Positions 1-38,119 of a stretch of 64,000 nt of DNA are shown here, piece after piece. The position numbers and the translations under genes are program-made. The first letter of the stretch is position 1, and each line of letters begins with the position of its first letter. The notes under the pieces were generated by a model, which searched no databases, was not told the DNA's origin, and was given only the letters and a program-made list of their open reading frames with translations. This DNA is from Hydnum rufescens UP504 (Eukaryota; Basidiomycota; Agaricomycetes; Cantharellales; Hydnaceae), in the NCBI GenBank assembly GCA_014904985.1, contig MU129006.1, forward strand, positions 20,297-84,296, in the 5' to 3' direction.

Positions 1-100
1 ATTTATTATTATTTGTTTACTATTTATTATTATTATTATTACTATTATTATATACATATTATACTATACCCCCCCAGGGTCTGCCACCACAGGGGGGGAT
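1..100. repeat. Left terminal block of hairpin-intron array 1
   Basis: An A+T-rich TTA/TAT tract is followed at about 68-98 by a C7 run, AGGGTCTGCC, and a G7 run, which together form an imperfect inverted repeat. The same order (TATACATATTAT, C-run, AGGGTTTGCCACTGCAGG, G-run) recurs at 20,690-20,812 at the left end of the second array. A partial copy lies at 21,430-21,480. An inverted A+T-rich relative lies at 4,745-4,790. I read it as the conserved end of the array element. The element may start before this window. Confidence 0.6.
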
Positions 101-1532
101 AGTTTATGCAGGTCACGCGCCCACATATACCCACCATACCTCCGCAGTGAGTGCGGTTGGGGGCCGGTTCCTTTTGGGCACTCCCTCGCGGGGTCGGTCT
201 TCGTTTGTGGGGGTTCGTTCGTAGTTATCGTTTGCTGCGATCTCATTCGGCCGGTTCTGCTTGGGGGCTCGCGGGGATTCTGGTTCAGGATCTAGAGAAA
301 TAAATAATAAAATATTAGTACAACTGTAATGCAGCACAAAAAGAGCAGCTTATGCTGCTCTTTGTGTGCCACAAGAATAAGAAATAAAAAAATAAGAAAA
401 AACATACTTGTAGTACCCCACACCCACTGCAGTGGTGTGGGGTACTGGGGCTGTGTACTCTGGCTGGTATGTACGGCGATTCGTACGGGTGCCCGTCGTT
501 CAGGCGTCGATAAGGGGGTTACGGGGGTGTTGCGTCGGTATTTATTTGCAGGGCATGTTAAGACCTACAGATAAACCTTTTTAATTAGTTAAGAATTAAA
601 AACCACGCAAAAAGAGCAGCGAAAGCTGCTCTTTTTGCGTGGCTGTAGCTACTAGGGTGGCGGGGGCTTACCTTATATAGAACCACACACCCGCCGTGGC
701 GGGTGTGTGATTCCGGGCCCTTGTTCTTTATTTGGCGCGTTGCCATGTCATGTTGCTGTGTCGCGTTGTTATGTTGCGTTGTTGTGCCACGTTCCCATGT
801 CATGCTGCGGTGTATCGTGCTGCCAGGTTGCTGTGTCGCGTTGTCTCGTCATTTCGCGGGTTATCTTCATGTGTTGGATGGGCTCCTATCTGGAATAAAG
901 TGCATCAGTGAAAAAAATCCCAAAGCAGCGCAAAAAGAGCAGCTTATGCTGCTCTTTTTGTGCCACAACAATAAAAAATAAAAATAAACCTTGTAGTACC
1001 CCACACCTGCTGTAGCGGGTGTGGGGTACTGCAGTCCATCATTCAGGTGTCGATAGTTGGGGGTTACGGGGGCTCTCGCGTGGGTATTCGTTCGTGCGGG
1101 AAGTGATGACCTATAATACAAGACTATATGTTAGTTAAGAGTTAAAGACCATGCAAAAAGAGCAGCTTTCGCTGCTCTTTTTGCGTGGCTGTAGCTACTG
1201 AGGGGGGGGGACTTATCTTATATGGAACCACACACCCGCCGTGGCGGGTGTGTGATTCTGGGCCCTCGTTTGGTGCATTGCCGTATGTCGCGTCGTCGTT
1301 GTCATGTTCGTCGTTGCCGTATATCGCGGTGCCGCGTCGCGTTGCCGTGTATTGTGGTGCCGCATCGCGTTGCTGTTTGGGGTCTCGTCGTTTCACGGGT
1401 CATCGTCGTGCTGTGGGACAAGGTCTCCAATCTAGAATAAGGCATGTTAGTAAAAAAATTCCAAAGCAATGCAAAAAGAGCAGCTTTTGCTGCTCTTTTT
1501 GCGCCGTTGTGTCTACTACAAGGAAGACTCAC
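101..1532 (-). repeat. Hairpin-intron array 1, minus-oriented half (5 units)
   Basis: Read on the minus strand, this stretch has five intron-like units: 1532-1432, 1216-1111, 989-890, 671-565 and 407-292. Each has a GT-type donor followed by a perfect or near-perfect hairpin ending in GAGCAGC/GCTGCTC, a T-rich tract, a CTAAY-like branch point and an AG acceptor. The hairpin at 603-642 has an 18-bp stem with a GAAA loop on the plus strand. A second hairpin class, CCACACACCCGC/GCGGGTGTGTGG, lies just upstream of most donors. Donors vary: GTGAGT and GTAAGC are good, 989 is GTTTAT, and 1216 is ATAAGT, meaning G+1 is lost. No long reading frame links the exons. The half points away from the foldback core at 1,624-2,281. 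Confidence 0.75.
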
Positions 1533-1623
1533 CTTATGACCACACACCTGCAGTCGCGGGTGTGTGGTCGTGCGTTTGCCTTTTCAGGCAGTTGCCTGTT
1601 GTGGTTCGGAGATGCGGAGCAAG

Positions 1624-2281
1624 ATGGAAACTCAACGCCGGCAATTGCCGGTACTTAACAAGTGCCCAAGTGCTGGTGTTACAAGCAGAATACATATTAA
1701 TAGCAAGTATATAGATGTGTAATAAATACTATATAATAAATATTTACCCAGAAATGCGAAGAAGACGATGATAATAGGTCAGAGCTCAATAAGGCATGAT
1801 ATGCATAATTGCAAAGTGGATTGGGCGACTTCTATGGGTCAGAATTGGCCCAAATTAGAATATATTAATGGTATATATGCACCTTACATGAGCGATCAGT
1901 TACATTGGACGTCCCGGGCATTTCTGAAATTTTCACGCCTTCAATTCCCTAAATAGGGAATTGAAGGCGTGAAAATTTCAGAAATGCCCGGAACGTCCAA
2001 TGTAACTGATCGCTCATGTAAGGTGCATATATACCATTAATATATTCTAATTTGGGCCAATTCTGACCCATAGAAGTCGCCCAATCCACTTTGCAATTAT
2101 GCATATCATGCCTTATTGAGCTCTGACCTATTATCATCGTCTTCTTCGCATTTCTGGGTAAATATTTATTATATAGTATTTATTACACATCTATATACTT
2201 GCTATTAATATGTATTCTGCTTGTAACACAGCACTTGGGCGCTTTCTAAGTACCGGCAATTGCCGGCGTTGAATTGCACCA
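1624..2281. repeat. Near-perfect foldback core of array 1
   Basis: A long palindrome is centred between 1952 and 1953, so position x mirrors 3905 minus x. Arms of about 330 bp match with only a few mismatches, and the inner part is almost exact with a 2-nt loop. Both arms contain the self-complementary block CCGGCAATTGCCGG. Beyond 2,281 the symmetry continues more loosely into the first exon hairpins on both sides. The two 62-codon open frames at 1768-1956 (+) and 1949-2137 (-) are mirror copies of each other and are not convincing genes. Transcription through the core would give a hairpin RNA long enough for Dicer. Confidence 0.85.
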
Positions 2282-2325
2282 CTACGCAGCCACACCCAGC
2301 AATGGCCCAGAAAGGCTGAGGACAC

Positions 2326-4690
2326 GACCACACACCCGCAGTCGCGACTGCGGGTGTGTGGTCATAAGGTGAGTTTTGTCCTATTAGATACAATGGCACA
2401 AAAAGAGTAGCGAAAGCTACTCTTTTTGCGCTGCTTTGAGTTCTTGTACTAACACACCTTTGATTATTTTAGACGAAAGCCCGCACGACGAGGGCCGACA
2501 CAGCAACAGCCAAACCAAAGCAGACAACAGACCCCCCTATGGGTGGCCCCAGGAACCACACACCTGCCGCGGCGGGTGTGTGGTTCTAATAAAGGCAGGT
2601 ACGTTTGTACACCCCCAACAGCGCGAAAGAGCAGCAGATGCTGCTCTTTCGCGCTGATTTTATTTCTCAACTAATATATTATTTATTATTCCAGGTTATC
2701 GACCAGACCCAGCAAAATAACGACCTGCCGAACGAACCACCCCCGCCCCGAAATCACGATGCGACCCGCCAACGACGGCCAACCGGACAAAGCCCCAGAC
2801 GAAACCACACACCCTGCTTCGGCGGGTGTATGATAATTTTAAGGTAAGTACAACCACGCGAAAGGAGCAGCGTACGCTGCTCCTTTTGCGTGGGTCTTCT
2901 TTTTTCTCTTTTACTAATATATTTACTATTCTAGGGTGTCAAGCAAAATGACGACCCGCCAAAACAACATACGCCAAACGAAACCTGCCAACGACGAACT
3001 GGCCAGACAGAACCCCAGACGAAACCACACCTGCCAAAGCGGGTGTGTAAGGTAAGTATCTGCACAACCGCACAAAAGGAGCAGCGTATGCTGCTCCTTT
3101 TGTGTGGCTTTGCTTTTTTTCTTTTTTACTAATGTATTATTTACTATTCTAGTTTGTTATTTGAACCCACAACAAACCCCCCACCAAACAAAAGCTACAA
3201 ACGTGACCTGCCAAAGCCCCATCAAACGAAACCCAGGACCAGACACCCACGACACGAGACCACAGAAACCGCAAATGGAACCACACACCCGCCAAAGCGG
3301 GTGTGTGGTAATTTTAAGGTAAGCATATGCACAACCACGCAAAAGGAGCAGCGTACGCTGCTCCTTTTGCGTGGCTTTTCTTTTTATTTTATTTTATTTT
3401 TTACTAATGTATTACTTATTATTGTAGATTGTCGTCTGAGCTAACAACGAGCTCCCCGCGTAACGCAACCCACCAAAACCCCAACCAAACGACGCCCGCC
3501 CACCATCAGTCCACCAGACGAGACCACAACACCCCGGCGAACGACAATGCACCACACGAGGAGACGGACCACACACCCGCAGTTGCGGGTGTGTGGTTCT
3601 ATACAAGGTAATGCACCCCCCCCCCCTCAACAGTGCAAAAAGAGCAGCAAGGGCTGCTCTTTTTGCATTGTTTTAATTTTTAACTAACAAATTGTTTATT
3701 ATTCTAGGATATCGCCTGAACCACCCACAAAACGAGAGCCCCAAGCCCAACACACCAAGGAACACCCCCAGACGTAACCCGGGAACGAGAACGCACAACA
3801 CAAGGCCACAGGGACCCCAGACGAACCACACCTGCTTCGGCGGGTGTGTGATAATTCTAAGGTAAGTACAACCGCGCAAAAGGAGCAGCGTATGCTGCTC
3901 CTTTTGTGTGGCTCTTCTATTTTTTCTTTTACTAACATATTTACTATTCTAGACAGTCAAGCCAAATGACAACCTGCCGAACGAACCCCCCCAGGGAATG
4001 ATGATGCGACCGGCCATGACACCTGCCAAACGAACCACGCCAACCATGACCGGCCAGACCAAACCCAAGAGAGCACCACACACCCGCTTCTGTGGGTGTG
4101 TGGTAATTTTAAGGTGAGTACAACCGCAGCAAGAGGAGCAGCGTGCGCTGCTCCTTTTGCGTGGCTTTTCTTGTTTTTTTTTATAACTAACGTATTATTT
4201 ATTATTTTAGTTTGTCATCTGAACCCAACACCCGCGACCCCGCCGAACGAACATGGGAGAACGACAACCCACCTGCCAAATGAATCCCGCGAACGGCAAC
4301 AAGTCGAAACCACGACACAAGCCCCGGACGAACCCCACACCCGCTTCGGCGGGTGTGGTAATCTTTAAGGTTAGTATATATATACATGTCCGACTATGCA
4401 AAAGGAGCAGCAGGGGCTGCTCCTTTTGCCTGGTTTTTCTTTTTTTAACTACCTTATTATTTATTATCATAGGTATTCTTCTGAATCCACATCCCCCAAC
4501 TGAAGCCACGACCCCGCCGAATGAAAACACGCAACCACGGGTGAGGGGGAGCCCCAACGGTGAAGCGCGCGAAACGACATCCCCGGTACCACACACCCGC
4601 CCAAGCGGGTGTTAGATAGTGTTTTAAATTTTTATAGACAGTACCACATGCCCGCCCAAGCGGGTGTGTGGTATGTTTTTTATGAATTTT
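2326..4690 (+). repeat. Hairpin-intron array 1, plus-oriented half (9 units)
   Basis: Nine consecutive intron-like segments are visible: 2369-2472, 2599-2694, 2844-2934, 3052-3152, 3319-3427, 3608-3707, 3862-3952, 4114-4210 and 4370-4472. Nearly all donors are GTRAGT-like, and branch points read CTAAC/CTAAT or close variants 15-25 nt before YAG. Each intron holds a hairpin of the type GGAGCAGC/GCTGCTCC shortly after the donor. The intervening C-rich exons are 117-180 nt and end with a CCACACACCCGC/GCGGGTGTGTGG hairpin 7-15 nt before the next donor. The first exon hairpin (2326-2363) is a 19-bp perfect palindrome. The exon phases do not join into one frame. The last exon carries two hairpins (about 4588-4613, 4643-4672) and runs into A+T-rich DNA. 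Confidence 0.85.
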
Positions 4691-5010
4691 TAAATAAATA
4701 AATAAATAAACAAGTCAATAAAAACAAAACACAGGACTGAAACCCTGTGGAGCATATGTACAATATAGTGATAATAAATAAATAATTATAAATGGAAAAC
4801 ATTATCCCCGATAAGCCCGTATGGCCCACTGCAAGTCTGAGATTCTCTAAGTCTCAGTTTCGGCCAATTTTCGGCCAATTTTCGGCCATTTCGGCCAATT
4901 CTGGGCCAGGAGGTGAAATCATAAAAATGGCCATTTCAGCCGGAATAGTGATGGGACCTCCTTAGGTACCATTATCTGCCCCGGAAGTGGTACCTAACTA
5001 GGTAGGCTTA
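4691..5010. repeat. Right terminal block of array 1 with GGTACC palindrome
   Basis: AAAT repeats and an inverted version of the array-end A+T block are followed by short repeats of TTTCGGCCAA. A palindrome at 4953-5005 is built on GGTACC arms around a CTGCCCCGG loop. A close relative of that palindrome sits at 20,568-20,620, on the outside of the second array. This suggests that it belongs to the ends of the array element, or to a common neighbour of it. Confidence 0.55.
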
Positions 5011-8000
5011 GATGACTGACCAAGGTGCATGACCTTGCCTCAAGGCCCTACTTCTTGGTGGTGACAGTAAATTCCATTGGCTCATTTTCCTGGCGACCGT
5101 GGCTGTCCGCACGCTCTCAATGCGGGCAGGTACAATATCATCAACATTGTTCCCCTCTGGTTTGCTCAATAAATTAACAGTCTAGTCTCCCCTTCCTCTT
5201 TCTTGCTTGGTGACTTCTGTGATCTTCTTGGCGCCTCAAGTGATTTTGGTTAGGCACAAATTGTTCTTGATGTTTTGTTACACTCTGTTCCCAGTATTCA
5301 GAAATGGGTGCAATTTCAGAGGATTTGTCTCTCCTTGATTGCTCTATATTGCCTTCCTCCAACATTGACATGTTGACACTTGAGGCTCTCAAGTCGATGT
5401 ATTTTACTCAAGGGGTTGTCCCCCACTGGGAGTCCTGGTTCCTCTTGTATCCCGAAAAGAGTATTGGCGGAACCAACGAGACCTCGCGATGCACCTCGCC
5501 TGAACTCAATGTTCTATGAAAGCCGGGGCTGTGACACCTTCGGGGCATAGCTGGTGCTTTCTGCCTTGGGTGTTCAACTCTTTGGTCTTGGGACAAAAAT
5601 GGTGGGAGAGCTCCTTCAGTGTCTCCTGCCATTAGAGATATCGTCAAGCATGAGGACAATAATGTCAAGGCCCTCGAAACCTCATCCCTGAAACATGCAA
5701 CCCAACGTAGATGTTCATGGCACCAGATTCGATTCTGGTTCGCCGTGACGACTCTGAGATGGAGTAATCGGAGTCGAATTATACTCTTGAAGATCTGTTG
5801 GCCCTTAGTCGCTCCGGTCAAGGTCTCCACAAGCTCCCAACGGATCAGTTCAATTTGAATAAGGAAGCGGAAGTCAACATCACCCTTGTTCCCCCTGTTC
5901 AGGGTATCCTAGAAGAGAGGTGATGTCAGCAGTTCAAGGTCTCAATGATGGTTTTGTATTCACTGGCTTTTCGGCACTTGAAGGCAGTCAGGAGTATAGA
6001 GTGTTTCTCCTAATGCTGATCAACATGCCAGATGGACCCCCAAAGCAATGAGAATGTGATCCCCCCCACGAATGGACTCTGTTTCCAATACAATTGTAAC
6101 TTCCCTCTTTCAGGGGCACCAGCCGATCTCCATGACATTGCCTTCTTTAAGGAAAGGAGTTGGAGATCTCATTTGCGACACTCTGAGGCTAATGTTGACC
6201 CACCCATGAGGGTTATCTGTCGCTGAGCATCCTGATTCCTCCTGTATTTCGAAGTTTCAATGAATTTATTGCGGCACTTTGGCAGCCGACAAATGCCGGC
6301 CTTGCATCCCAACCGAACTGAATGGTCTGCAAAACTGGTGGTCGTCACCCCCTTTGGGGCGCAGGGACTCCAGTTTCCAACTACTTTCCTAGGTGGAGCC
6401 CTCCCTACTCTAGCCCTCATGCAGTACAACCTATGTTTTCTGATCTGGGCACCTGGCTCTTTGGTTGTGAGACAAAATTACTATCAAGGGACGGGTCAAA
6501 TGACTTGATTTTCTCCCCAAGCAAGCAAGGACAATGTCAACCCCGGATGTGCCCCAAATGTAGGTGTTCTTCAAAGCGGATTCAGCTCTTGTTCTTGGTG
6601 ACTCCTCCGAGACATAGCCACGAAACTCGAAGTATATTGGTGGAGATTTGTCTATCATCTCATGGTCTCACCAAGGTGGCATCACTCGTTCAAGCTCTCA
6701 GTGATGGTTTCACATTCACAGAGTTTTTGGCCCTGTGCTTCACCTACCAGTGATTGACAAACCAGATGGACCCCAAAGACAGTTCCAACGATGTCAATGC
6801 TATGAGACTGCCTGCAATTCAAGTCAAGAAGATTTATACAGAGAGTGGCGAGAACACCACCAATGGATTCTGTTTCTGAGGCAGTCGCAACCACTCCCGG
6901 CATTACCTCCTTCAGGGGCTCCAGCTGATCTCCACAACATTGTATTCTCACGAAAAGATTTGGATGGCTCATATTTAGGCCTCCTTCTCTCCTCAGCAAA
7001 CTGAAAGAAGTGGCCCATTATGGTTTGCAGGCCCCTTGGTTAATGTTTCTGGGAGTACTGAGAGAAATCCTTGGGTGTTTCTATCAAAAGTTATGACTTT
7101 CATCAAGACTGAAGGTGGAGCCTTGGTTCTCATAGTCCCCTCCACTTCCTCTCATGTGTGTGACTGTGAGAGACACTGGGCAGGAGAAGAGTACAGTGGG
7201 GACTGCAGCTGATGGATGCAGGATGTGGCAAATAATGCTGGCCCCAGTTTGATAACCCTACCATTAGATTCAGTTGGGGCCATGTAAGGTTTATCAGTTC
7301 TCAATCCTGCTTTTCAATCCATTATATATGATCTCTTCAGTTTTACTCTCCCCATCAATGAATTTACTCACTGCCTTCACTGCTCCCACTAATCTCTATC
7401 ATTGGCTTTCCAAGACCAGAACGCTGATGGAGGCATTCATTCATATCTCAACCAAAATGAACAGCCACAAAGTAGACATCCACAAAAATGCCAAATGTGC
7501 ATTCCTGCCTCTATTTCCTCCTGGTTGATGAATTTCACCAAAAATATGCTGTATTCTTTGTAGTCTTGAAACCATTGATTGCAAGGCATGATGCACCATA
7601 CATTCTGCCTCACATCCAGTTCTCCCCTTTGTGATGCAAAGATTATTTGTCTATTGCCAGAATGAATGATGAACATAGGGTCACCACACAGTGAGCCTCA
7701 AGTGAAATGGAAAGCACAGTCCTGGGGTCTAGAAGAATGTGATCTGTGTTCCTGCTAGATGCAGCATTCCTGAGACCATCAGCCATGCACCAGAGGGAGG
7801 TGTCAGGCTTGGCAATCTGGCATACAAGAACTGGGGGCTGAGACTTGAGGGATGGGAACTCATTCCTCATTGCATTATGGTAAGTCCTCATCATGTCCAT
7901 ATTCTGGACTCTATGGGATTGTTGTAAGTGGTGTACTTAGTGTGTTCTTATAGGTGCATCAACCATGCTACAAATGACCTAAAGTGGCATTCATAGACAG

Positions 8001-9353: not shown

Positions 9354-11393
9354 TTATACATGTTCAAGCCTCTGTACAAATGGATGATCTTGAGGATCCA
9401 CAATTATAACATGGCCATCCTGACACCCAACTGCAACTCTGGGTTGACTGAGCAGACTGGATGCCTTAAGTGCAGTCTTTGGGCAATAATGGGGAGGGAT
9501 ATAGCATATATGAGCAACAGGATGGCCCTGTGAGTCCAGTGCCTGGATCCACCCACCCACCCTAGACCACATGAGGGAAGTGAGGCTGATAGTAGGAGGG
9601 AAAACCTCCAGAATTGAGGAAGAGACTAATTGAGGGGGTTGGGATGTCAAATCCCATGCAAAGGTGTTTGTAGGAGTTTGGGAGATGAGGGTGTGGCCAT
9701 CAAAGGAAAATACAAGATCTAGAACATTCCTAGAATCAACTTCAAGAGTTGCAATGCACACCCTTGACATGGCATCCCACAAGCATACAGTATGATCATA
9801 TGAGCCTGATGCAAGCCATGAACCATCAGGTGAAAAGGCAACCAAGGTAACTCCTTTAGAATGGCCATGAAGAGTTGCAATATGTGCACCTGACATAGCA
9901 TCCAACAAGTATACAGAAGAATCCCAGGAGCCTGATGCAAGCAGTAAACCATTGGGTGAGAATGCAACAGACCCAACCTGGTCCTTAGAATGGCCAGAAG
10001 TTGCAATGTGTACACCCAACACTGGATCCCACAAGCATACAGTACTATCTGATGAGCCTGATGCAAGCCTCAAATTGTCAGGTGAAAATGCAACTGACCT
10101 AACCCAATCAGAATGGCCCTGAAGGGTGGCAATGCATGTGGCATGCATGACATCCCATATGCATATAGTTTTATCAAATGAGCCAGATGCAAGCTGTACA
10201 CCATCAGGTGAGAATGCAACTGAGATAATCCAATCAGAATGGCCTTCAAGAGTTGCAGTGTGTGCACCAGACATGACATCCCACAACCATAGAGTATGAT
10301 CATATGAACCTGATGCAAGCCTCAGACCATCAGGTGAAAATGCAACTGAGAGAACTGAATTGGAATGGCCATGAGGGGTGGTAATGGGTGTACCTAACAT
10401 AGGATCCCACAAGCATAGTGTCTGATCACCAGAGCCAGATGCAAGCCATAAACTGTCTGGTGAAAATGTGACTGAGTTGACTGAATGAGAGTGGCCATGG
10501 AGAGTTGCAATGTGTGTGCCTGACATGGCATCCCACAAGTGTATGGTTTTATCACCTGACCCTGAGCCTGATGCAAGCCATGAACCATTGGGTGAAAATG
10601 CAACTGAGTATACTGAATCAGAATGACCTTGAAGAGTTGCAATGTGCACACCCAATACAGCATCCCACAAGCATATGGTATGATCATCTGAGCCTGATGC
10701 AATGTGTAGCCCATCAGGTGAAAATGCAACTGAGGAAACACTATCAGAATGATGATGAAGAGTTGCAATGTGGGTGCCTGACATTGCATCCCACAAGCAT
10801 AGGGTATGATCATATGAGCCTGACACAAGCTGCAAACCATCAGGGGAAAATGCCACTGACTCAACTGAATCAGAATGGCCTTGAAGAGTTACAGTGTGCA
10901 TCCCCAACATGGCATCCCACAACCATAGGGTGTGGTCATCTGAGCCTGATGCAAGCCTTGAACCATCAGGTGAAAATGCAACTGAGGTAATGCCATGAGA
11001 ATGGCCTTGAAGAGTTACAGTGCATGTATGCAACATGGGATCCCACAAGCATAGGGTCTCATCCAATGAACCTGATGCAAGCTGTAAACCATCAGGTGAG
11101 AATGCAAGTGAGGTAACTGCCGCAGAATGGCCCAGAAGAGTTGCAATGCACTCTCCTAACATTGCATCCCACAAGCAGAGCATACCCTCCTCTGAGCCTG
11201 ATGCAAGCCATAGACCATCTGGTGAAAATGCAACTGAGTAAACCCCACTAGAATGGCCAATAAATGTGGTCAAGCTCTGCGGCCATTGTGCCTCCACACC
11301 CTGCAGCACTCTGATACAACTCTTTACATCTTTTGAATATGTCTTGTATAGAGCAGTGTCATATGGTGTGAAGGCCAAGGCAGAATGATACAC
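9354..11393 (-). CDS. WD40-repeat half of a NACHT-WD40 NLR-like gene
   Basis: This 679-codon open frame encodes about 12 WD40 repeats plus a degenerate one, with the recurring pattern GHS-x-SVAFSPDG-x-LASGS-x-LWDA roughly every 42 residues. A C-terminal region of about 160 residues follows. Such repeats form beta-propellers that sense ligands or partners in fungal NLR proteins. The frame opens with a GTG at 11,393 and no convincing start. Its first residues (YHSALAFTPYDTALYKTY) are the usual linker between NACHT and WD40 in this family, so it continues the gene at 11,398-13,906. A shift of one base near 11,398 breaks the frame. CpG is almost absent (about two sites in 2 kb), unlike the NACHT half. 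The gene may be a pseudogene, or the shift may be an assembly error. Confidence 0.85.
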   Translation of the reverse strand: MYHSALAFTPYDTALYKTYSKDVKSCIRVLQGVEAQWPQSLTTFIGHSSGVYSVAFSPDGLWLASGSEEGMLCLWDAMLGECIATLLGHSAAVTSLAFSPDGLQLASGSLDETLCLWDPMLHTCTVTLQGHSHGITSVAFSPDGSRLASGSDDHTLWLWDAMLGMHTVTLQGHSDSVESVAFSPDGLQLVSGSYDHTLCLWDAMSGTHIATLHHHSDSVSSVAFSPDGLHIASGSDDHTICLWDAVLGVHIATLQGHSDSVYSVAFSPNGSWLASGSGSGDKTIHLWDAMSGTHIATLHGHSHSVNSVTFSPDSLWLASGSGDQTLCLWDPMLGTPITTPHGHSNSVLSVAFSPDGLRLASGSYDHTLWLWDVMSGAHTATLEGHSDWIISVAFSPDGVQLASGSFDKTICIWDVMHATCIATLQGHSDWVRSVAFSPDNLRLASGSSDSTVCLWDPVLGVHIATSGHSKDQVGSVAFSPNGLLLASGSWDSSVYLLDAMSGAHIATLHGHSKGVTLVAFSPDGSWLASGSYDHTVCLWDAMSRVCIATLEVDSRNVLDLVFSFDGHTLISQTPTNTFAWDLTSQPPQLVSSSILEVFPPTISLTSLMWSRVGGWIQALDSQGHPVAHICYIPPHYCPKTALKASSLLSQPRVAVGCQDGHVIIVDPQDHPFVQRLEHV

Positions 11394-11397
11394 CTGC

Positions 11398-13906
11398 AGT
11401 GCACTGCCCGTATCAGTTCACGGTGGGCGAGAATGAATCGCCGTGCATCGGCCAACAAAGTGATCACAATTGCCTCGCACTTCGAATTCATCTGTCATCA
11501 GAATCACTCTCCAATCAATTGCTGATCCGATGTACAATAACAAATACACTTACTGCCCATCGGTGTGCCACTTCTATCCAGACCACAGCACTAGAGAGAC
11601 TCCCAATCAGGCTCATTGCTTCGATCCACATCAGAATTAACCGCTTCGAAAATCCCTCCAGCGCTTCCACCATTCGCTTCTCCCCCAATTCCACACACGA
11701 TAGATGTGATGCCCAATACCTGCACGCATACTGCACCTCCGCCAATAGCACATCTCTCACTTTCTCCTCCAATCCCTTCACCTCGCTATTCAAAAGCGAC
11801 ACATCCGAGATCCCTGCGATGTCCTGCTTCAAGAAGGTTGCCATAAGCTCGAGGCATCGCAACGCGTGCCGTAGCTCTTGATCTGGTCCGGCAACAATCA
11901 CAAAGTCGGGGATAGCGCATCGTGAAGGATCCATAATGAAGTCGCGAAATGAAGGGTGATAAATACGAGGGGCCTCGTCCGGAGTGGAAGGAGGGATGAT
12001 CACGGAACGAAGGTGACGGAGGGCGGTATCAACATCATCGGGTGTGCACTGCACAAACTCCGCCAACGAGCCCATCGGGAGAGGTTGCCGAAGCAGGACG
12101 ATACTACCCACCACCGTTTGAAACCGTTTCACAATCGCTTTACGATTAGAATCCGAGAGCGAGTTCCGAAGGACCCCAACGTATAAGCTGTCCAGCTGCG
12201 AGTAAGGTGTTACCTCCGATTCCTTGCTGAGCTGGCTATCCAGTATAAGACGTAGATGACCACGAGGATCTCGAACACGAGCGTCGCCAATGAATCGGAT
12301 CGATGTCGCTGCATAAATGAACAATTTCCCTGATTTCTCAACCAGTGAATTGATTTCTCCCTCCGTCCAATCTGAAACGTTTCCGAGCTCGAGCCTCTTT
12401 AAAATCCTCCCCAATTCAGACCGAATGTAAAGCCGAAGGTCTTCCTCAATCACAGAAGCTTCAATATCGTGAAGAACTCTCTTGGCGAGGTTCCTGGCCT
12501 GAGTGAAGACCGACGAGATGTGTGGCTCCGGGCGACTGGTAATTAAGACGCGGAGGAAGGGTAATTGTGAAGCGTGAGAAAGTAGTAGTTGTAAGATTGT
12601 GTCAGCGCCCTGTTCTTCACACTCGTCGAGTGCGTCAAGCACGATAAGTGTCGTCTGTCGGGTTGGCCCAAGTCGGCCCAAGGGCGTCAAGATCAATCCT
12701 TCGAATTGGGAGAAAGTGTTCTTGTGACCCAACGTCGGGTCTTGTTGTATCGCCTCCCCGATAGCGTTCTTGAACTCGTTATCCGACAGTGCGAGTTGGA
12801 ACGCAAGCGTTGGGAAGACAAGGCTCGGATTCCGCAAAGGTGCGTCGCTCCGGGAAAAGAAGAAACTCCCCCCTAACATCTTATTCTTGCCCGCTCGTTC
12901 GGCCACCGTTTTCGCAATCGTCGACTTGCCGATTCCGGCGAGTCCAACGAGCCAGTACACAGGCGGCGTGCTGCTGTCCATGTTCTCGAACCATGACATG
13001 ATCTCTGTCAGGATTGAAACACGAGTGCCTTCGAGGCATGACGAGGGGGCATCCTCGCGGCCGGAATCGTAGGCCGCAGAATTAGCACGAGGGAGAGACA
13101 TGACGGCCGCAGATCGTTCTGTGGAAGCTGGTCTTAGCGAACGAACAGTGAGGAGTGGAGGGAATCTTACTTTCGAGAAACAATTCTTGCTCTTGACGGA
13201 GTGTTTGACTAAGCTGGATCGTCCACGCCAGTCAGGAGGATGGAGGGGCACAAATATTGTGGACAAACAGACCTGAAAACGGTCGAGAGCCGCCTTGACG
13301 TTTTGGGAAAAAGTAGGTAGATCGTGTTCATCTTTGTTTCGTTCCAAGAAGCGACGTACACGGCCTGCGGAAGATTTTGACTGGACACTGGAGGCAATAT
13401 GCTCCAAATCTCTAATTGGACGACGCATATATTAGTGGCACACATATTATCAATCAAAGCGTCGGTACTCACTTGCTCAACTTCCGCACATCGTCCTCGA
13501 GGCCAGATGGGATATTGTTCTGGTCCATTTTCGTCACGGGCTCCAGAAGATCGGTTAGGGATCGAAGATGATTTTCTAGTTCTAGTAGCGTTGAGGAGTT
13601 CCGGGAAGTTTTCTGGAAGGACACAGAGAGCAATGAGGACGGATGATTTCAAAACGAGGGGAGTATGATACTAACGTCAATGCCTTCGACAACATCGAGG
13701 AGAATGCCAATGCCATCCTTGGCACCCGGGATTGGGATTGCGTCGAGGAGGAGGTGGAGAGGTTGGAGAATGGCTAAGGAGAGACCTTTGGCGGTCTTCC
13801 CCGGGTTGAGGGACCACTTCATCCGGACGATGGGGAAGGCTTGGTAGACAGAGGTGAATTCGTGAGGAGAAAAGGATAGAATGACTATAGGTCGCCCTCA
13901 ATCTAT
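11398..13906 (-). CDS. NACHT NTPase half of the same NLR-like gene
   Basis: Predicted exons are about 13,906-13,676, 13,612-13,473, 13,411-13,273, 13,213-13,171, 13,118-11,554 and 11,491 to about 11,398. All junction phases agree. The large exon has a Walker A motif (GLAGIGKST), a Walker B-like stretch (LIVLDALDECE) and a sensor-like ITSRPEP, the hallmarks of a NACHT nucleotide-binding domain. The N-terminus is a helical fungal NLR-type region, and its true start is unclear: an in-frame ATG lies at 13,822 and the frame is open to about 13,906. The last exon (R-FILAHRELIRAV) leads into the WD40 part but loses frame near 11,398. Proteins of this class act in fungal non-self recognition and regulated cell death; that role here is inferred from domains only. 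Confidence 0.85.
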
Positions 13907-13955: not shown

Positions 13956-15919
13956 GTCATGACCTTGCCTTGAGGCCCTGCTTCTTGGTGGTCACGGGAA
14001 GTTCCGTTGCCTCATTTGGGTTCGACCGTGGCCTCGCCTCAATGCGGGCAGGTACAATGTAGTCAACATCGCTCCCCTCTGGTTTGCTCAGCAAATTAAG
14101 ACTCTAGTCCCTCCTTTCTCTTTCCGGCTTGGTGACGTCCATGATCCCCTTGGTACCTCAAGTGATTTTGGCTAGGCACAACCGCACAGGTTAACCAGGT
14201 CTATTCTCGATCTTTTGTTACACCTCTGTTCCCAGTATTCAGGCATGCGTACCATTTCAGAGGATTTCTCACTCCTTGATTGCTCTATATTGCTTTCTTC
14301 AGATGTTGATATGTCGACATTTGAGGCTCTCAAGTTGATGTATATTTATTCAAGAGATTATCTCCCACACGGCGTCCTGGTTCCTCCTGTATCCGGAAGA
14401 TAGTATCGGCGAAACTAATGAGAGCTCGCGATGTATCTCGCCCGAACTGAATGTTTTATGAAAGCCGGCTTCTGGGGTGTTTCTGAATACCGGCCATCCA
14501 GAGGTGGTGCTTTCTGCCTCAGGCGCTCGGCTCTTTGGTCTTGTGACGAAAATGATAGGGAGAGCGCTTTCTAGGCTCACGCCATGGCCATCGGATATAT
14601 CGTCAAGCAGACGAGGACGATGGTGTCAGGCCCTCGAAACCTCATCCCCGAAACATGCACCCCGACGTAGATGGTCATCGCACCAGATTCGATTCTGGTT
14701 CGCCGTGACAACTCCGAGACAGAGCAATCGGAGTCACATTACACTCTCGAAGATCTGTTGGCCTGTAGTTGCTCCAGTCAAGGTCTCCACGAGTTCCCAA
14801 CGGATCAGTTCAATTTGAATAAGGAAGCGAACGTCGATATCACCCTCGTTCCGCTAATTCAGTGTATCCTAAAACAGAGGTGACGTCAGTAGTTCGGGCT
14901 CTGAGTGATGGTTTCGTATTCCCGGCTTTTCGGCACTCGAGGGCGATCAGGAGCATAGAGTGTTTCTCCTAACGCTGATCAACAAGCCGGATGGACCCCC
15001 AAAGCGGTGAGAACGTGATCCCCCCCACGAATGGACTCTGTTTCCAATGCAATCATAACTTCCCTCCTTCAGGGGCACCAGCCGATCTCCGCGACATTGT
15101 CTTCCTAGGAAAAGAGTTGGAGAGGTCTCTTTTACGCCTCTCATTCCCGAAGAAGTTGCCCCACGGAGAATCCTCTGTTCCCACAGAGGTCCCCTCCACC
15201 TCCTCTCATGGATGTAAGCGTGAGGGATGGGGAAATAGAGAAGGCATCCAACATTCTAGAATCTTGTCCGTATCCAAGCACACTCGTTTTGGTCTCGCTC
15301 GATTGCTTTCTGACTGGATCATGGAAAGGTGCCATCTCATTTTACGACATCATCCCGCCAATGAATCTCCTGACGTGGACACCCAAAGATCCATAGTCGG
15401 GGGATCGTATTCTGGAAAGAGCATCCTTGAATCCCTCAAACCGAGGTTTCCTGCCCAGATACAGAGCTGCGGTGTGCTCTCGATGCTGTATGTGATATAA
15501 ACTAAATGACCCTAAATATCTTGACTGCTGAATTATTCTCAGTATTGTTGGGTTCAATGCACTCGCAAGCTTTGACTAATGTATATCCGTGCGTATCAAT
15601 CCTATGTCATGAATCCCTCTGTCTCCAGGCGAATTCATGGTTTCGGCTGCGACACCCTCGTAGGTGATCTTGTCCTTGAGAAAAAGGAACTACACACTAA
15701 GAAGGACCCGACTGACATTGTTAATGCAGACAGAACATCAAGGCTAGGTAATGTGGAACGTGGTCTCCCCCGGCCTAGCAGATCAGAGCTTCCTGGACTT
15801 GTCTGTATCGAAAGGATAGCTCCATAGTCGTAGACGGGATACCTTGGTTTCTTTGATGCAAATTGTCAAGGCCTCAGATTCATTACCAGCTAAAAAAATC
15901 CTACATAATACAATACCAT
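13956..15919. other. Second copy of the NACHT-WD40 3' flank
   Basis: This block matches 5,015 onward, so the tandem unit boundary lies at about 13,956. It keeps more CpG than the first copy. The longest open frame, 14,991-15,500 (+, 169 codons), has no recognisable domain and its counterpart near 6,032 is broken. I treat it as decayed or non-coding. Confidence 0.5.
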
Positions 15920-17589: not shown

Positions 17590-18524
17590 CAAATTAACAT
17601 CTAAATGTTGATTCAGAGGAGACTTTATTCAGGGGATGGAACACATGAAAAGGAAAGGCACCTTAATTGCTAAGGGTTGTCTGTGCCTGTCATGATTCCC
17701 ACTATGACTGTTATCTCAGAGCAGATTCATGGTTTCAGCCACCACATCCCCACAGGTGAGTTCATCTGAGAAAAAAAACTCATCAAGACTGCAGTGCCAG
17801 AACAAAGTATGTGCATGCCAATGTTCATGCAGATGAAGTAGTAAAGCTAGGGAATCCAGAAGGTGCTCTGTTCTTTCTGTGTCCCTTTTGGTCTTGCTAA
17901 TCAAAGGTTCCTGTATTCATTTATATTGAAAAGATATCTCTACAGTTGAAAGATGAGACATATTGGTTTCTTGACACAAAGCAGACACAAAGGGTGTTAA
18001 AACAATAATATACTATCTATAAGGAGTTTCTGCATGTTGAAGCCTCTGTACAAATGGATGATCTTGAAGATCCACAATTATAACATGACCATCCCCACAT
18101 CCAACTGCAACTCTGGGTTGATTGAGTGGACTTGATGCCTGAACACCAGTCCATGGGGAATAATGGGGAGGGATATAGCATATACGGGCCACAGGATGGC
18201 CCTCTGAGTCCAGTGCCTGGATCCACCTGCCCACCATACACCACATGAGAGAACTGAGGCTGATAGTAGGAGGCAAGGCCTCCAGAATTGAGGAAGAGAC
18301 TAATTGAGGGGGTTGAGATGTCAAATCCCATGCAAAGGTGTTTGTAGAAGTCTGGGAGATGAGGGTATGACCATCAAAGGAAAATGCCAAATATAGAATA
18401 TTCCAAGAATCAACATTAAGAGTGGCAATACACACCCTGGATATGGCATCCCATATGCACACAGAGTGATCAAATGAGCCAGATACAAGCCATAAACCAT
18501 TGGGTGAAAAGGCAACCAAGAAAT
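17590..18524 (-). pseudogene. Third WD40 C-terminal copy, truncated
   Basis: The frame at 18,519-18,013 keeps one degenerate WD40 blade and the whole C-terminal tail, about 90 percent like the tail of the gene ending at 9,354. Its 3' flank (17,640-18,013) matches 9,090-9,350. The 5' side stops abruptly at about 18,520, where an unrelated tandem repeat begins. The NACHT domain and most blades are missing. Confidence 0.8.
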
Positions 18525-19335
18525 ATTAACCAAATTGGGTGTTCGTAGGCTTGTTGGAATCACCTCATTTGTCTGCATCTTTCAAGCCTATTTACAAAGC
18601 AGTCTGATCACTCCTCATCTCGCCATCTCCATCCTCTCCCCCTGCCCTCATGTGGTCCCCCAAGGGGAAGGGGGTTGTTGTTCAAGCTGTGTGTGGGTGC
18701 ATTATATGCACCCAAATTGCAGCTTTTCAACACCCCCACTCTCAAGGTGATCCAACAATTTTTGGCTATGCTGTTCCTCATCTCCTCCTGCCCTCCCACT
18801 CAACATCACCTGGAATCCTCAAATCTTAACCAAATTGGGTGTTTGTAGGTTTGTTGGAATCACCTCATTCGTCCGCATCTCTCAAGCCTATTTATAAAAC
18901 AGTCTGATCACTCCTCATCTCACCATCTCCATCCTCTCCCCCTGCCCTCATGAGGTCCCCCAGGAGGAAGGGGGTTGTTGTTCAAGCTGTGTGTGGGTGC
19001 ATTATATGCGCCCAAATTGCAGCTTTTCAACACCCCCACTCTCAAGGTGATCCAACAATTTTTGGCCATGCTGTTCCTCATCTCCTCCTGCCCTCCCACT
19101 CAACATCACCTGGAATCCTCAAATCTTAACCAAATTGGGTGTTCGTAGGTTTGTTGGAATCACCTCATTTGTCCGCATCTTTCAAGCCTATTTATAAAAC
19201 AGTCTGATCACTCCTCATCTCACCATCTCCATCCTCTCCCCCTGCCCTCATGAGGTCCCCCAGGAGGAAGGGGGTTGTTGTTCAAGCTGTGTGTGAGTAA
19301 ATTATGTGCACCCAAATCACAGCTTTTTAACACCC
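18525..19335. repeat. Tandem repeat, 300-bp unit, about 2.7 copies
   Basis: CAAATTGGGTGTTYGTAGG recurs at 18,531, 18,831 and 19,131, exactly 300 bp apart. Units are over 90 percent identical, and the third ends at about 19,335. There is no coding sequence. The unit begins where the WD40 relic is cut off. Confidence 0.9.
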
Positions 19336-19889
19336 CTTTCCCTGGTGGAGGCAATGGATCATCCCTGTGTTCTCCATGTATTGTCATAATTAGTCTCCAT
19401 TTGTGTCAATGTCTATCAGAGTACAAAATCACTCATTATAACCCATTGTGGCTATCCCTGATAATGCTGTGTTGCCTGCTGACCCCAAGGCCCACATTCC
19501 CTTGGTTTCCAGACCCCCTCCTGCTACCCCCATGTGGTTCCCCCTCCATGTAGTATTGATATTGGCTGAAGTTGAATTTCTCTTAAGGTCAATTTGATCA
19601 TTGTCAATTGACATCAAAGAAAATCAGTCCTCCTTAGGCCAGAAAAATGACCTCAAATGGTACTCCTTTTGAGGTCTGCCCAAGTGGCTGACTGAGGTGT
19701 TAATTCTGAACATAGGGAGAATGAGGCCAACACAGACCCTAGTAGTATGGATGGGTACAATGTGCCCACCCCCAGACATCAAGTTGACACAAATATCAAC
19801 AATGGCACACCTACCAGCAATGGGTTCATAGTTTATGATGATGAGAATGCTGGTCATGTCTTCTGACAACAACAACCCACCTGTTTTGA
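19336..19889. other. No gene seen
   Basis: CpG-poor DNA between the tandem repeat and the Plavaka relic. The open frame at 19,624-19,899 (-) shows no domain. Confidence 0.5.
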
Positions 19890-20545
19890 AGAGCTCCACT
19901 GCAGCAGGAACTCTGCAAGTTCATCTGCACCATGGGCAAGTGAAGAGGAGTGGGACCTGGCCCAATGGTTGATGTCAGTTCACATTTCACAGGTGGCTAT
20001 TGATAGATTCCTGAAGTTACCCTGGGTATGTACCAATACCACAATAAGGTTATATGATTTTTATACCTATTACCTACCAGGTTTGCACACACCCTGCGCC
20101 TTGAGCTTTCTGTCAGCAAAACAACTCCATGCTAAGGTCCAGAGCATGCCAGGTGGTCCGCCATGGCTCTCTGCTGAGATTACTCTCAAGGATGCCCCAA
20201 ATGAGCCACAATCCCTCTGCTATCATAATCCACTTGAATGTGTCACATACTTGTTCCAAAACCCTTCATTCAAGGGCTGTATGGACTTTTCTCCAAAGCG
20301 GGTCTATATGGCTGATGGCAAAACACAGTTGTACCATGAGATGGCATTGGCAGAAGGCTGGCATGCAGAACAGGTACATTACTTAGTAGTGATCATTGTG
20401 GATTGATCTTTATTCTGAGATTATCTAGGCAAAGCTCCCAAAAGGAGCTACACTGCTGTTAGTTATCATTGCATCAGACAAAACTCACCTCACAAATTAC
20501 TCAGGTGACAAGACTATGCATGCCATCTACATCACACTTGCTAAT
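19890..20545 (+). pseudogene. Plavaka-type transposase relic
   Basis: Exons can be read as about 19,890-20,024, 20,084-20,375 and 20,438-20,545. The first gives WASEEEWDLAQWLM and the second SAKQLHAKVQSMPGGPPW, then MDFSPKRVYM. The third gives LPKGATLLLVIIASDKTHLT, then SGDKTMHAIYITLANI. These are characteristic blocks of the Plavaka transposases of Agaricomycetes, distant relatives of the CACTA group. The introns have GTATGT and GTACAT donors with CAG/TAG acceptors. Catalytic parts downstream are missing, cut off just before the second hairpin-intron array. Confidence 0.7.
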
Positions 20546-20567
20546 ATCAGGCTGGTCAGTCAAATTG

Positions 20568-33663: not shown

Positions 33664-35165
33664 ATGCCTGGGCTGCTTCGAGGCTCGTCAACTACTGCGT
33701 TCCCCGCCCCGAGGACAAGGTGCGCATGACCTTGGGGAGGTCCCCGCACATCATTGCCGCCTTCCTCACCCTCGTAACGCTTGCCGCTCTCGCGCGCCAA
33801 CCTGGGACGCGCTTCCTGCGTCTGGCGATATTACCTTTCGCTGTCATACTCACCTTGCGGCTCACGTACGGCTTCGTCTGGTGGGATTTCCCACTGAACG
33901 GTATAAGCTTCCTCGCTGGTACGTGCTAGAGCCCCTCTCCTCACATAGCTTACTCATTCTATGATTCCCTTCCATTCCAGGAGCTTACTCGATTCTTATG
34001 ATAATGAAAGTCCTCCAATTGGGCCTCTCGCCCAATGGTATCCTCAAACTGGGTGAGAAAGTCCCTGGAGAGATTACAGTGCCAGCATCAGATCTCGTCG
34101 TGCGCGATCCTCCAAAGAGGGCCGCCCGCGCGCCAGGGAGCTTGACATTGGTAGAACACTTCCTGTCGGGTTTGGAGGTGCTGCCTCTGCGCGAGGCATT
34201 GGCTGGGAGTTCGGATCGGGCACAAAGATACAGATCCCACCGGAGACTCGCGACGTCTCGGACACCTCCAAGTTCCTGCGTCAAACATACCAATCCGCCG
34301 TCATCCACTTTCTTTACGTGGACCTCATCGATGTCTTTATTTCACTTGTCCCAGGCATTGGAACGCCTGATGGGGGCTCGATATTTGTGTTTGGCCAGAA
34401 TACTGTGGAAAGATACTTGATATCTGCACTGCTCCATTTCATCACTAGCCTCTCCTTGATATACAGTGAGCGGTCCCATCTTCCAATCGATTTCTCTCTC
34501 CCTCTTAGAACAGTGTATTTCTCTTCACAGAACTCCATTTCGGGTACGATTTTCTGACAATGATTGGGGTTGGCCTCATCGGGCAGCACCCAACATCATG
34601 GCCACCTGTGATCAGCACCACCGTCATCACCAGCACGTCAATGCACTCCTTCTGGGCCCGGGACTGGCACCAGCTCTTCCGACAGACGTTCCTGACCCTC
34701 GGCGGGTATCCCTTCCAGGCCATCTTCGGATCGAGTGGTCTCCTCTGGGGTACCTTCCTCGCCTCGGGGGTCCTGCACGTCTGGGGCCTGTACGTAACTG
34801 GCCGCGGCACCGACTGGGACTCGGTGATATACTTTGGGTTGCAGCCGTTGGCGCTGATCGCGGAGAGGGCATGGTATAGGGTCACGAAGCGACGAGTGGG
34901 CGGGTTCTTCGGATGGATATGGGCCTGGTTATGGGTCCAGGTGTTTGGTCAATTCTTAAGTGAGTCCTGTCCGACAACCCCGTCCGCCAGGTGCTCCCAT
35001 ACTCATTGCTTTGTCCTTTTTTTAGCGAATTCGTGGCATCGCCGCGGTTTTTCAGGTGGTATATTCGTGCCGCCGGCCCTCAGTCCAACCCGGCTCCTCC
35101 TGCTCCCCAAAGTCCTCCCGTACATCCAGCCAATCCTCCAGAGATACTTCACCCCTACGGCATAA
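33664..35165 (+). pseudogene. Wax-synthase-like acyltransferase, copy A, frameshifted
   Basis: Four exons match the other copies, including the active-site region HSFWARDWHQ of MBOAT-type wax synthases, which transfer acyl groups from acyl-CoA to alcohols at membranes. Several hydrophobic segments are visible. Two single-base losses break it: near 33,684 in the first exon (compare copy B) and near 34,183 (GTGCTG then CCTCTG, one base short). The 3' exon (34,556-35,165) is otherwise open. Splice sites are kept. It is likely non-functional unless these are sequencing errors. Confidence 0.8.
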
Positions 35166-36609: not shown

Positions 36610-38119
36610 ATGCCTGGGCTGCTTCGAGACCTCGTTAACTACTGCGTTCCCCGCCCCGAGGACAAGGTGCGCATGACTTCGGGGAGGTCCCCATACATCA
36701 TTGCCACCTTCCTCACCCTCGTAACGCTTGCCGCTCTCGCGCGCCAACCTGGGACGCGCTTCCTGCGTCTGGCGATATTACCTTCCGCTGTCATACTCAC
36801 CTTGCGGCTCACGTACGGCTTCGTCTGGTGGGATATCCCACTGAACGGTATAAGCTTCGTCGCTGGTACGTGCTAGGGCTCCTCTCCTCACACAGCTTAC
36901 TCATTCTATGATTCCCTTCCATTCCAGGAGCTTACTCGATTCTTATGATAATGAAAGCCCTCCAATTGGGCCTCTCGCCTAATGGTATCCTCAAACTGGG
37001 TGAGAAAGTCCCTGGAGAGATTACATTGCCGGCATCAGATCTCGTCGTGCACGATCCTCCAAAGAGGGCCGTCCGCGCGCCAGGGAGCTTGACATTGGTA
37101 GAACACTTCCTGTCGGGTTTGGAGGTGCTGACCTGTGCCCGAGGCATTGGCTGGGAGTTCGGATCGGGCACAAAGATACAGATCCCACCGGAGACTCGCG
37201 ACGTCTCGGACACCTCCAAGTTCCTGCGTCAAACATACCAATCCGCCGTCATCCACTTTCTTTATGTGGACCTCATCGCTGTCTTTATTTCACTTGTCCA
37301 GGCATTGGAACGCCTGATGGGGGCTCGATATTTGTGTTTGGCCAGAATACTATGGAAAGATACTTGATATCTGCACTGCTCCATTTGATCACTAGCCTCT
37401 CCTTGATATACAGTGAGCGGTCCCATCTTCCATTCGATTTCTCTCTCCCTCTTAGAGCAGTGTATTTCTCTTCACAGAACTCCGGTTCATGTACAATCTT
37501 GTGACACTGATTGGGGTTGGCCTGATCGGGCAGCACCCAACATCATGGCCACCTGTGATCAGCACCACCGTCCTCACCAGCACATCCATGCATTCTTCTG
37601 GGCCCGGGACTGGCACCAGCTCTTCCGACAGACGTTCCTGATCCTCGGCGGGTATCCCTTCCAGGCCATCTTCGGGCCGAGTGGCCTCCTCTGGGGTGCC
37701 TTCCTCGCCTCGGGGGTCCTGCACGTCTGGGCTCTGTACGTGATTGCGTGGCCGCGGCACCGACTGGGACTCGGTGATATACTTTGGGTTGCAGCCGTTG
37801 GCGCTGATCGCGGAGAGGGTATGGTATAGGGTCACGAAGCGACGAGTGGGCGGGTTCTTCGGATGGATATGGGTCTGGTTATGGCTCCAGGTGTTTGGTC
37901 AATTCTTAAGTGAGTCCTCTCCGGCAACACCGTCCGCCAGGCGCTCCCGTGCTCATTACTTTGTCCTTTTTTTTTTTAGCGAATTCGTGGCATCGCCGCG
38001 GTTTTGCAGGTGGTGGATTCGTGCCGCCGGCTTTCAGCCCCACCCGGAACTTCCTGCTCCCCAAAGTCCTCCCGTACATCCAGCCAATCCTCCAGAAATA
38101 CTTTACCCCTACGGCGTAA
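36610..38119 (+). pseudogene. Wax-synthase-like acyltransferase, copy B, frameshifted
   Basis: The first exon is intact here (MPGLLRDLVNYCVPRPEDK), which shows what the others lost. The frame breaks near 37,299, where GTCC-AGG lacks a C found in copies A, C and D. It breaks again near 37,747, where four extra bases precede GGCCGCGGCACC. The HSFWARDWHQ region is largely kept but one base short: CATTCTTCTGG against CATTCTTTCTGG in copies C and D. Copy B is closest to copy A. Confidence 0.8.

Follow-up and report, generated by a model that had tools for sequence, protein, structure and literature searches.

The window analysed here is a 64,000-nucleotide (nt) stretch of the genome of Hydnum rufescens UP504 (Cantharellales; contig C98:20297-84296), and the assembly surveyed around it comprises 63.19 Mb in 539 contigs. 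At its left edge the window holds a mirror-symmetric array of hairpin-bearing, intron-like units. Such arrays form the interior of an abundant mobile DNA element with the ends CAGGCTGGTCAGTCA and TGACTGACCAAGGTG. With a length of 4.5-7 kb, the element is in all likelihood a non-autonomous DNA transposon that a KDZ transposase probably mobilises, and its cargo would be two divergent, intron-packed, non-coding transcription units. The vehicle is of a known kind and the cargo of an unknown kind, and a literature search brought up no description that we recognised as such a mirror intron-array element.

The copy at the window edge, element E1, has its left end in an assembly gap, window base 1 being the first base past that gap. 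Its 14 intron hairpins span positions 333-4391, five to the left and nine to the right of a palindromic centre, as a first-pass annotation made from the sequence had described, and the 276-nt arms of this centre match perfectly. The array lies within the extent of 1 to 4800 given there, but the element itself continues to 5027. The reported intron length of 91-116 nt is borne out, with 91-109 nt for the nine right introns and 100-116 nt for four of the left ones. The right introns carry AAG/GTAAGT-like donors (the slash marks the exon-intron border), and their branch sites, which are ACTAAC-like, lie 21-28 nt upstream of YAG. Complete splice signals, claimed for every unit, are present in most; in the left array, however, the unit with its core at 1160 reads AAG/ATAAGT at the donor and has lost the GT, the unit with its core at 937 is weak in donor and branch site, and right intron 9 is also weak. 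Five pieces of the window fold with energies under those of all their own shuffles (z -3.4 to -8.1).

Copies of these structures are dispersed through the genome. The intron-hairpin core occurs 4,921 times, its reversed pattern once, and a pattern of donor, hairpin and CTAA that does not require the acceptor matches at 475 places, with 0 for the reversed control. Some of these 475 matches are not intact introns, since among those listed one runs into the end of another element and at one place the pattern is matched on either strand. The exact left end CAGGCTGGTCAGTCA, with GGACCTAA nearby, is present 262 times and the exact right end TGACTGACCAAGGTG 352 times, whereas the reversed patterns give 0. 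Twenty left-right end pairs, 2.6-7.1 kb apart, were picked by hand from the listed places and inspected for target duplications. Exact duplications adjoin these ends in 12 of the 20 pairs, measuring 7 bp in seven and 8 bp in five, and a further element outside the set (L022) has a 7-bp duplication. Arrays are held by 19 of the 20 paired elements, at lengths of 4.5-7.1 kb. The dispersed copies, the target duplications and a spliced frame without a protein match support the first-pass proposal of an undescribed mobile element. Its view that this is no ordinary satellite also holds, the arrays having defined ends, target duplications and an outward mirrored orientation in place of head-to-tail repeats without ends.

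A palindrome of at least 150 nt belongs to each of 19 among 21 end-bounded elements. One E1 arm is 97-100% identical at six other genome places, and a genome search with the E1 arm returned 76 matches, mostly in facing pairs (40 of 580 candidates scored). Divergence is lower between the two arms of a copy (0.006-0.156) than towards the median other copy (0.11-0.22) in 17 of 18 cases; the exception, L037, has an own-arm difference of 0.171 against 0.140 to the median other copy. Homogenisation of the arms within a copy is only suggested by these values, because for 11 of the 18 copies the partner arm is more distant than at least one other copy. When 40 palindrome arms are aligned, no stretch of columns with 95% or higher conservation is longer than TATTATATA, a putative TATA box. 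At the opposite extremes, the terminal 450 nt contain A[AT]TAAA at 20 of 20 right ends and at 19 of 20 left ends (39 of 40), compared with 17 of 132 internal stretches. The one paired element without an array, L040 (L040:301-2884), shares the ends, is flanked by a 7-bp target duplication and has palindrome arms of about 950 nt of other sequence and no units; it is nested in another array. To judge from it, elements with these ends may commonly form palindromes.

The units repeat with a period of about 250 nt and have T-poor exons. Among 398 hairpins from 39 sources, splice signals are strong on one strand only at 306, on both at 11 and on neither at 81; random positions, tested on one strand, give strong signals in 76 of 1,965 cases. 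Across 20 elements (L022, E1 and 18 of 19 fetched arrays, one element without a palindrome being left out), 177 units are oriented outward and none inward, with 46 ambiguous or weak units dropped. The strong introns (n=180, 21 elements) measure 88-134 nt, with quartiles of 102, 105 and 111. The exon-end hairpin noted in the first-pass annotation is present, though slightly closer to the donor than the 7-15 nt given there, lying 2-14 nt (median 6) upstream in 137 of the 180. A one-armed array at L016:1620-2800 directly follows sequence that looks coding by eye and shares its direction.

Conservation between units is concentrated at the exon end and, to a lesser degree, in the intron. For 98 units compared in 138 same-arm pairs, median identity reaches 0.71 in the final 45 exon nt (shuffled 0.49) and 0.48 in the exon body (0.45), while the intron value of 0.67 (0.50) is partly built in because the units were selected by hairpin and splice motifs. 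When the choice of units relies on the core hairpin and the donor alone (142 units in 214 same-arm pairs), the exon end minus the donor stands at 0.68 (shuffled 0.49), the 55 intron nt after the hairpin at 0.60 (0.53) and the exon body at 0.53 (0.52). This deep comparison of units was used because region-wise rates suggesting that exons evolve faster than introns lost the difference once CpG/TpG/CpA sites were excluded. In 244 intron and 150 exon units, stem positions outside the core pair more than in any of 300 shuffles. The covarying positions are 1 and 3-10 of 12 in the intron hairpin and 1-7 and 9 of 10 in the exon hairpin, and two-sided stem changes are seen (for example A-T 182 to C-G 42). 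The loop is 4 nt long in 230 of 244 intron hairpins and 140 of 150 exon hairpins. GNRA is read on the sense strand in 77 of 234 intron loops, its antisense form in 2; UNCG is read in 35 of 175 exon loops, its antisense form in 8, with a C-G closing pair in 165 of the 175.

KDZ matches number at least 154 in the genome, where 150 out of 584 candidates were scored. There are also 274 copies of a motif that differs by a single base from the left end of the mirror-array element (14 of 15 bases the same). When the 46 KDZ matches listed on contigs C1-C82 were examined for this motif within 4 kb, a comparison that covers the left end, 12 had it 1.5-3 kb to the 3' side and pointing inward, against 0.4 expected, and two motif-KDZ pairs had other layouts. 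The mirror-array elements have 5'-CA..TG-3' ends, as KDZ transposons do. In the accessible part of PMC12730594, Kyakuja, in two Laccaria families of the KDZ group, is given CA..TG ends and 7-bp target duplications, and Zisupton and Dileera 8-bp duplications. Because the left end is one base from the motif found 3' of KDZ matches, the element reads as non-autonomous and of KDZ type, and we infer that a KDZ transposase mobilises it. Plavaka transposases, with 57 genome matches, were considered as movers and rejected, their target duplications being reported as 2-3 bp (PMC12730594, accessible part) against 7 or 8 bp here. A KDZ gene at C98:11892-16603 (loci L010/L009) is accompanied 3' by the variant end motif, and a portion of the gene region recurs closer to the gap. 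A duplication scan round this gene yields CAGGCTGGTCAGCC...TG with TGGAAGT on both sides as one of 23 candidates, while six other dinucleotide ends give 4-21; TGGAAGT is a possible 7-bp target duplication of that KDZ element, a lead and not a result. A scan round the gene that required a target duplication together with matching inverted ends found nothing.

In the life cycle proposed for the element, a Kyakuja-like KDZ transposase would act on it in trans. Transcription would start at the mirrored TATA-like boxes of the central palindrome and head outward in both directions. Each unit of about 250 nt would consist of a T-poor, freely evolving exon with a terminal UNCG-type hairpin, followed by a spliceosomal intron in which a GNRA-type hairpin sits between the donor and the branch site. 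The transcripts would be spliced and then polyadenylated within the element ends. Tentatively, the selected product could be RNA processed from the spliceosomal introns: a protein-free transposon would exploit the spliceosome for export, stability or evasion of silencing, and would spread introns by the thousand in arrays that diverge from a palindromic promoter, with one GNRA hairpin per intron and one UNCG hairpin per exon end. As to the benefit, a rather doubtful guess is that strong introns allow RNA of the element to build up and to evade the spliceosome-coupled silencing that hits poorly spliced transposon RNA in Cryptococcus (PMC5851062, accessible part).

Several observations weigh against this reading, in which transcription, splicing and polyadenylation are predicted. 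Eight of the 20 end pairs have no exact target duplication; in one of them, L032, 7 of 8 positions agree. The intron identity of the 98 units is inflated by the way they were chosen, and the intron excess shrinks in the 142 units chosen more loosely. Shared descent inflates the pair, covariation and loop counts, a single founder unit could pass on both loop and orientation bias, and the loop bias weakens among less related representatives, to 23 of 110 against 2 for GNRA and 12 of 85 against 5 for UNCG. Stem G.U outnumbers A.C by 86 to 37 among 69 representatives, which is near the shuffled 105 to 63 and suggestive only. Recent copies decay mainly at CpG-type sites. With CpG/TpG/CpA excluded, donor positions +1,2 changed in 2 of 127 and +3..6 in 5 of 240 cases, so that donors are not more conserved than exons (75 of 5,529). 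What remains of the intron (60 of 2,485) is less conserved than the exon; lower rates are found only for the branch site (2 of 403), the acceptor (2 of 203), stem A (15 of 1,744) and stem B (2 of 863). The recent-copy rates fit neutral decay after insertion and lend little support. The KDZ elements, compared at the left end only, terminate in the variant motif and not in the exact left motif, and none of 39 exact left ends (of 40 listed, C1-C29) lies beside a KDZ match in the layout described above.

The hairpins could instead act as DNA, as palindromic transposase binding sites or cruciforms, with splice signals that merely survive from an ancestral gene. Some transposons have repeated subterminal sites, both hairpin classes are near-palindromic in DNA, and the centre is a perfect palindrome; L040 combines the same ends and a palindrome of ~950-nt arms with an absence of units, and covariation alone cannot tell RNA from DNA hairpins. 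We nevertheless consider this unlikely, as all 177 one-strand strong units keep an outward donor, branch site and acceptor (46 others dropped), exon bodies are near background between units and the loops are strand-asymmetric, none of which a DNA site requires. If the arrays were non-coding host genes in the style of small nucleolar RNA (snoRNA) hosts, multiplied by transposition, the introns would carry the product, and introns do outdo exon bodies in between-unit conservation. Such an origin is improbable, however, given an exon end more conserved than the intron after the hairpin and hundreds of mobile copies; an Rfam search of the whole window gave no family at gathering score, and hence no recognisable snoRNA in the introns.

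The first-pass annotation had named introner-like elements as the closest known idea, in which case each intron unit would be mobile and insert into genes, and the array would serve as their donor or graveyard. Thousands of hairpin-bearing introns of about 100 nt do resemble fungal introner-like elements, for which symmetry is described (PMC8469720, accessible part), and complete splice signals with internal symmetry are found here. On the 919-kb contig C1, however, multi-unit clusters hold 41 of the 42 core hairpins and a mini-array holds the last one, and the ends and target duplications belong to the whole 4.5-7 kb element, which is the mobile unit. No unit appeared alone as a host-gene intron among these 42 hairpins or the loci read by eye, a sample viewed without gene models; the introner link is therefore not supported in the loci sampled, and we hold it highly improbable. 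A protein-coding repeat gene is scarcely credible. The T-poor exons have few stops, as expected by chance, but every spliced frame of the right arm of E1 contains stops, exon lengths break the frame, and exon insertions and deletions are a multiple of 3 in 11 of 111 cases. The known repeat protein that the annotation had considered did not emerge either, one spliced frame searched for homologues giving one candidate and no match, and seven chosen open reading frames having no Pfam match. An assembly artefact that mirrored one arm might be suspected where a perfect 276-nt palindrome adjoins an assembly gap; its probability is practically negligible, with own palindromes in 19 of the 21 end-bounded elements, 76 arm matches at 40 scored places and a left array that differs from the right. 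A KDZ-moved element with two divergent, intron-packed transcription units stays the preferred reading.

Table 1. Features of the two mirror-array elements in the window (window coordinates).
Feature	Position	Strand	Remark
Element E1, copy of the mirror-array transposon	1..5027	.	right end TGACTGACCAAGGTG at 5013-5027
Central palindrome of E1	1676..2229	.	arms 276 nt (1676-1951 / 1954-2229), 100% complementary, spacer 2 nt
Outer inverted repeat of E1	1629..2275	.	47 nt, 91%; CCGGCAATTGCCGG in both arms; putative first exons
TATA-like box, right arm, TATTATATA	2167..2175	+	9 columns at least 95% conserved, 40 arms
TATA-like box, left arm, mirror copy	1730..1738	-	same 40-arm alignment
Right intron 1	2369..2472	+	
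Right intron 2	2599..2694	+	
Right intron 3	2844..2934	+	
Right intron 4	3052..3152	+	
Right intron 5	3319..3427	+	fold -37.8 kcal/mol, z -7.6
Right intron 6	3608..3707	+	
Right intron 7	3862..3952	+	fold z -8.1
Right intron 8	4114..4210	+	
Right intron 9	4370..4472	+	donor GTTAGT, branch site weaker
Left intron 1, closest to centre	1432..1532	-	
Left intron 2	1124..1216	-	donor AAG/ATAAGT, GT lost; 5' limit taken from sequence
Left intron 3	890..989	-	donor and branch site weak
Left intron 4	565..671	-	
Left intron 5, outermost	292..407	-	
Exon-end hairpin B, example	2552..2590	+	one of 14 grouped copies
Other 13 copies of hairpin B	starts 679, 995, 1224, 1536, 2330, 3019, 3277, 3565, 3820, 4072, 4329, 4585, 4640		
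More diverged hairpin B copies of E1	near 418 and 2808		
AATAAA run	4690..4730	+	putative poly(A) signal of right transcript
Element E2, second mirror array	20548 to ~24990	.	left end CAGGCTGGTCAGTCA at 20548; right limit approximate

In the second array of the window, E2 (Table 1), no right end was recognised, and a central palindrome was looked for and not found. Two pieces of a Plavaka transposase lie at 20107-20551 (C98:40403-40847), and E2 was apparently inserted into this Plavaka remnant, since the second piece stops within 4 nt of the E2 start. The flank of E1 (5028-5600) is part of another repeat, with a 77% relative at 13958-14553. Elsewhere in the window, the minus strand at 9354-13428 carries a NACHT (NPHP3_N) open reading frame followed by a WD40-repeat frame with a 126-bp tandem repeat, together a fungal NLR-like gene. 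The best match of a NACHT frame of the window is an H. rufescens UP504 protein at 82% identity from a multi-copy family, and the matches listed include no identical protein. A tandem repeat of 300 bp occupies 18521-19336 (2.7 copies, 95% alike), and two sets of open reading frames of near-equal lengths at 33998-34885 and 36945-37835 suggest a tandem duplication of an MBOAT-like gene.

If splicing of the units does occur, a single mobile family supplies a 63-Mb genome with thousands of introns while remaining protein-free, and its hundreds of arrays offer a natural test bed for fungal splice-signal and hairpin rules. Splicing would also mean that, within a selfish element, introns and exon ends can be under selection while the exon bodies are left free. 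It would further bear on how introns affect the silencing of transposon RNA, and on how a palindromic promoter sustains two non-coding genes.

Among known systems, snoRNA host genes are non-coding and spliced, with introns that outlast exon bodies. The predicted non-coding, spliced-type gene of the mirror array has introns that likewise outlast the exon bodies; here, however, the introns have no Rfam snoRNA match and are repetitive, and the gene is mobile. Foldback and MULE-foldback transposons such as Tm1 and Galileo have long inverted arms that hold tandem repeats. The mirror-array element shares this layout, but its repeats are exon-intron units with splice signals, its palindrome is central and its target duplication measures 7-8 bp. 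Fungal introner-like elements and sister stwintrons share with it introns of about 100 nt, stable internal symmetry and many copies, whereas theirs stand alone in host genes and these are packed in tandem within a non-coding element. From the KDZ transposons of mushrooms (Kyakuja, Zisupton and Dileera) the element differs in that no transposase was found in it, in its intron-array cargo, which the accessible part of PMC12730594 does not describe for KDZ, and in the inverted TGGTCAGTCA shared by its two ends, Kyakuja being reported in that part without terminal inverted repeats. With the same transposons it has in common the CA..TG ends, target duplications of 7 or 8 bp, and a left motif one base from the motif 3' of KDZ matches.

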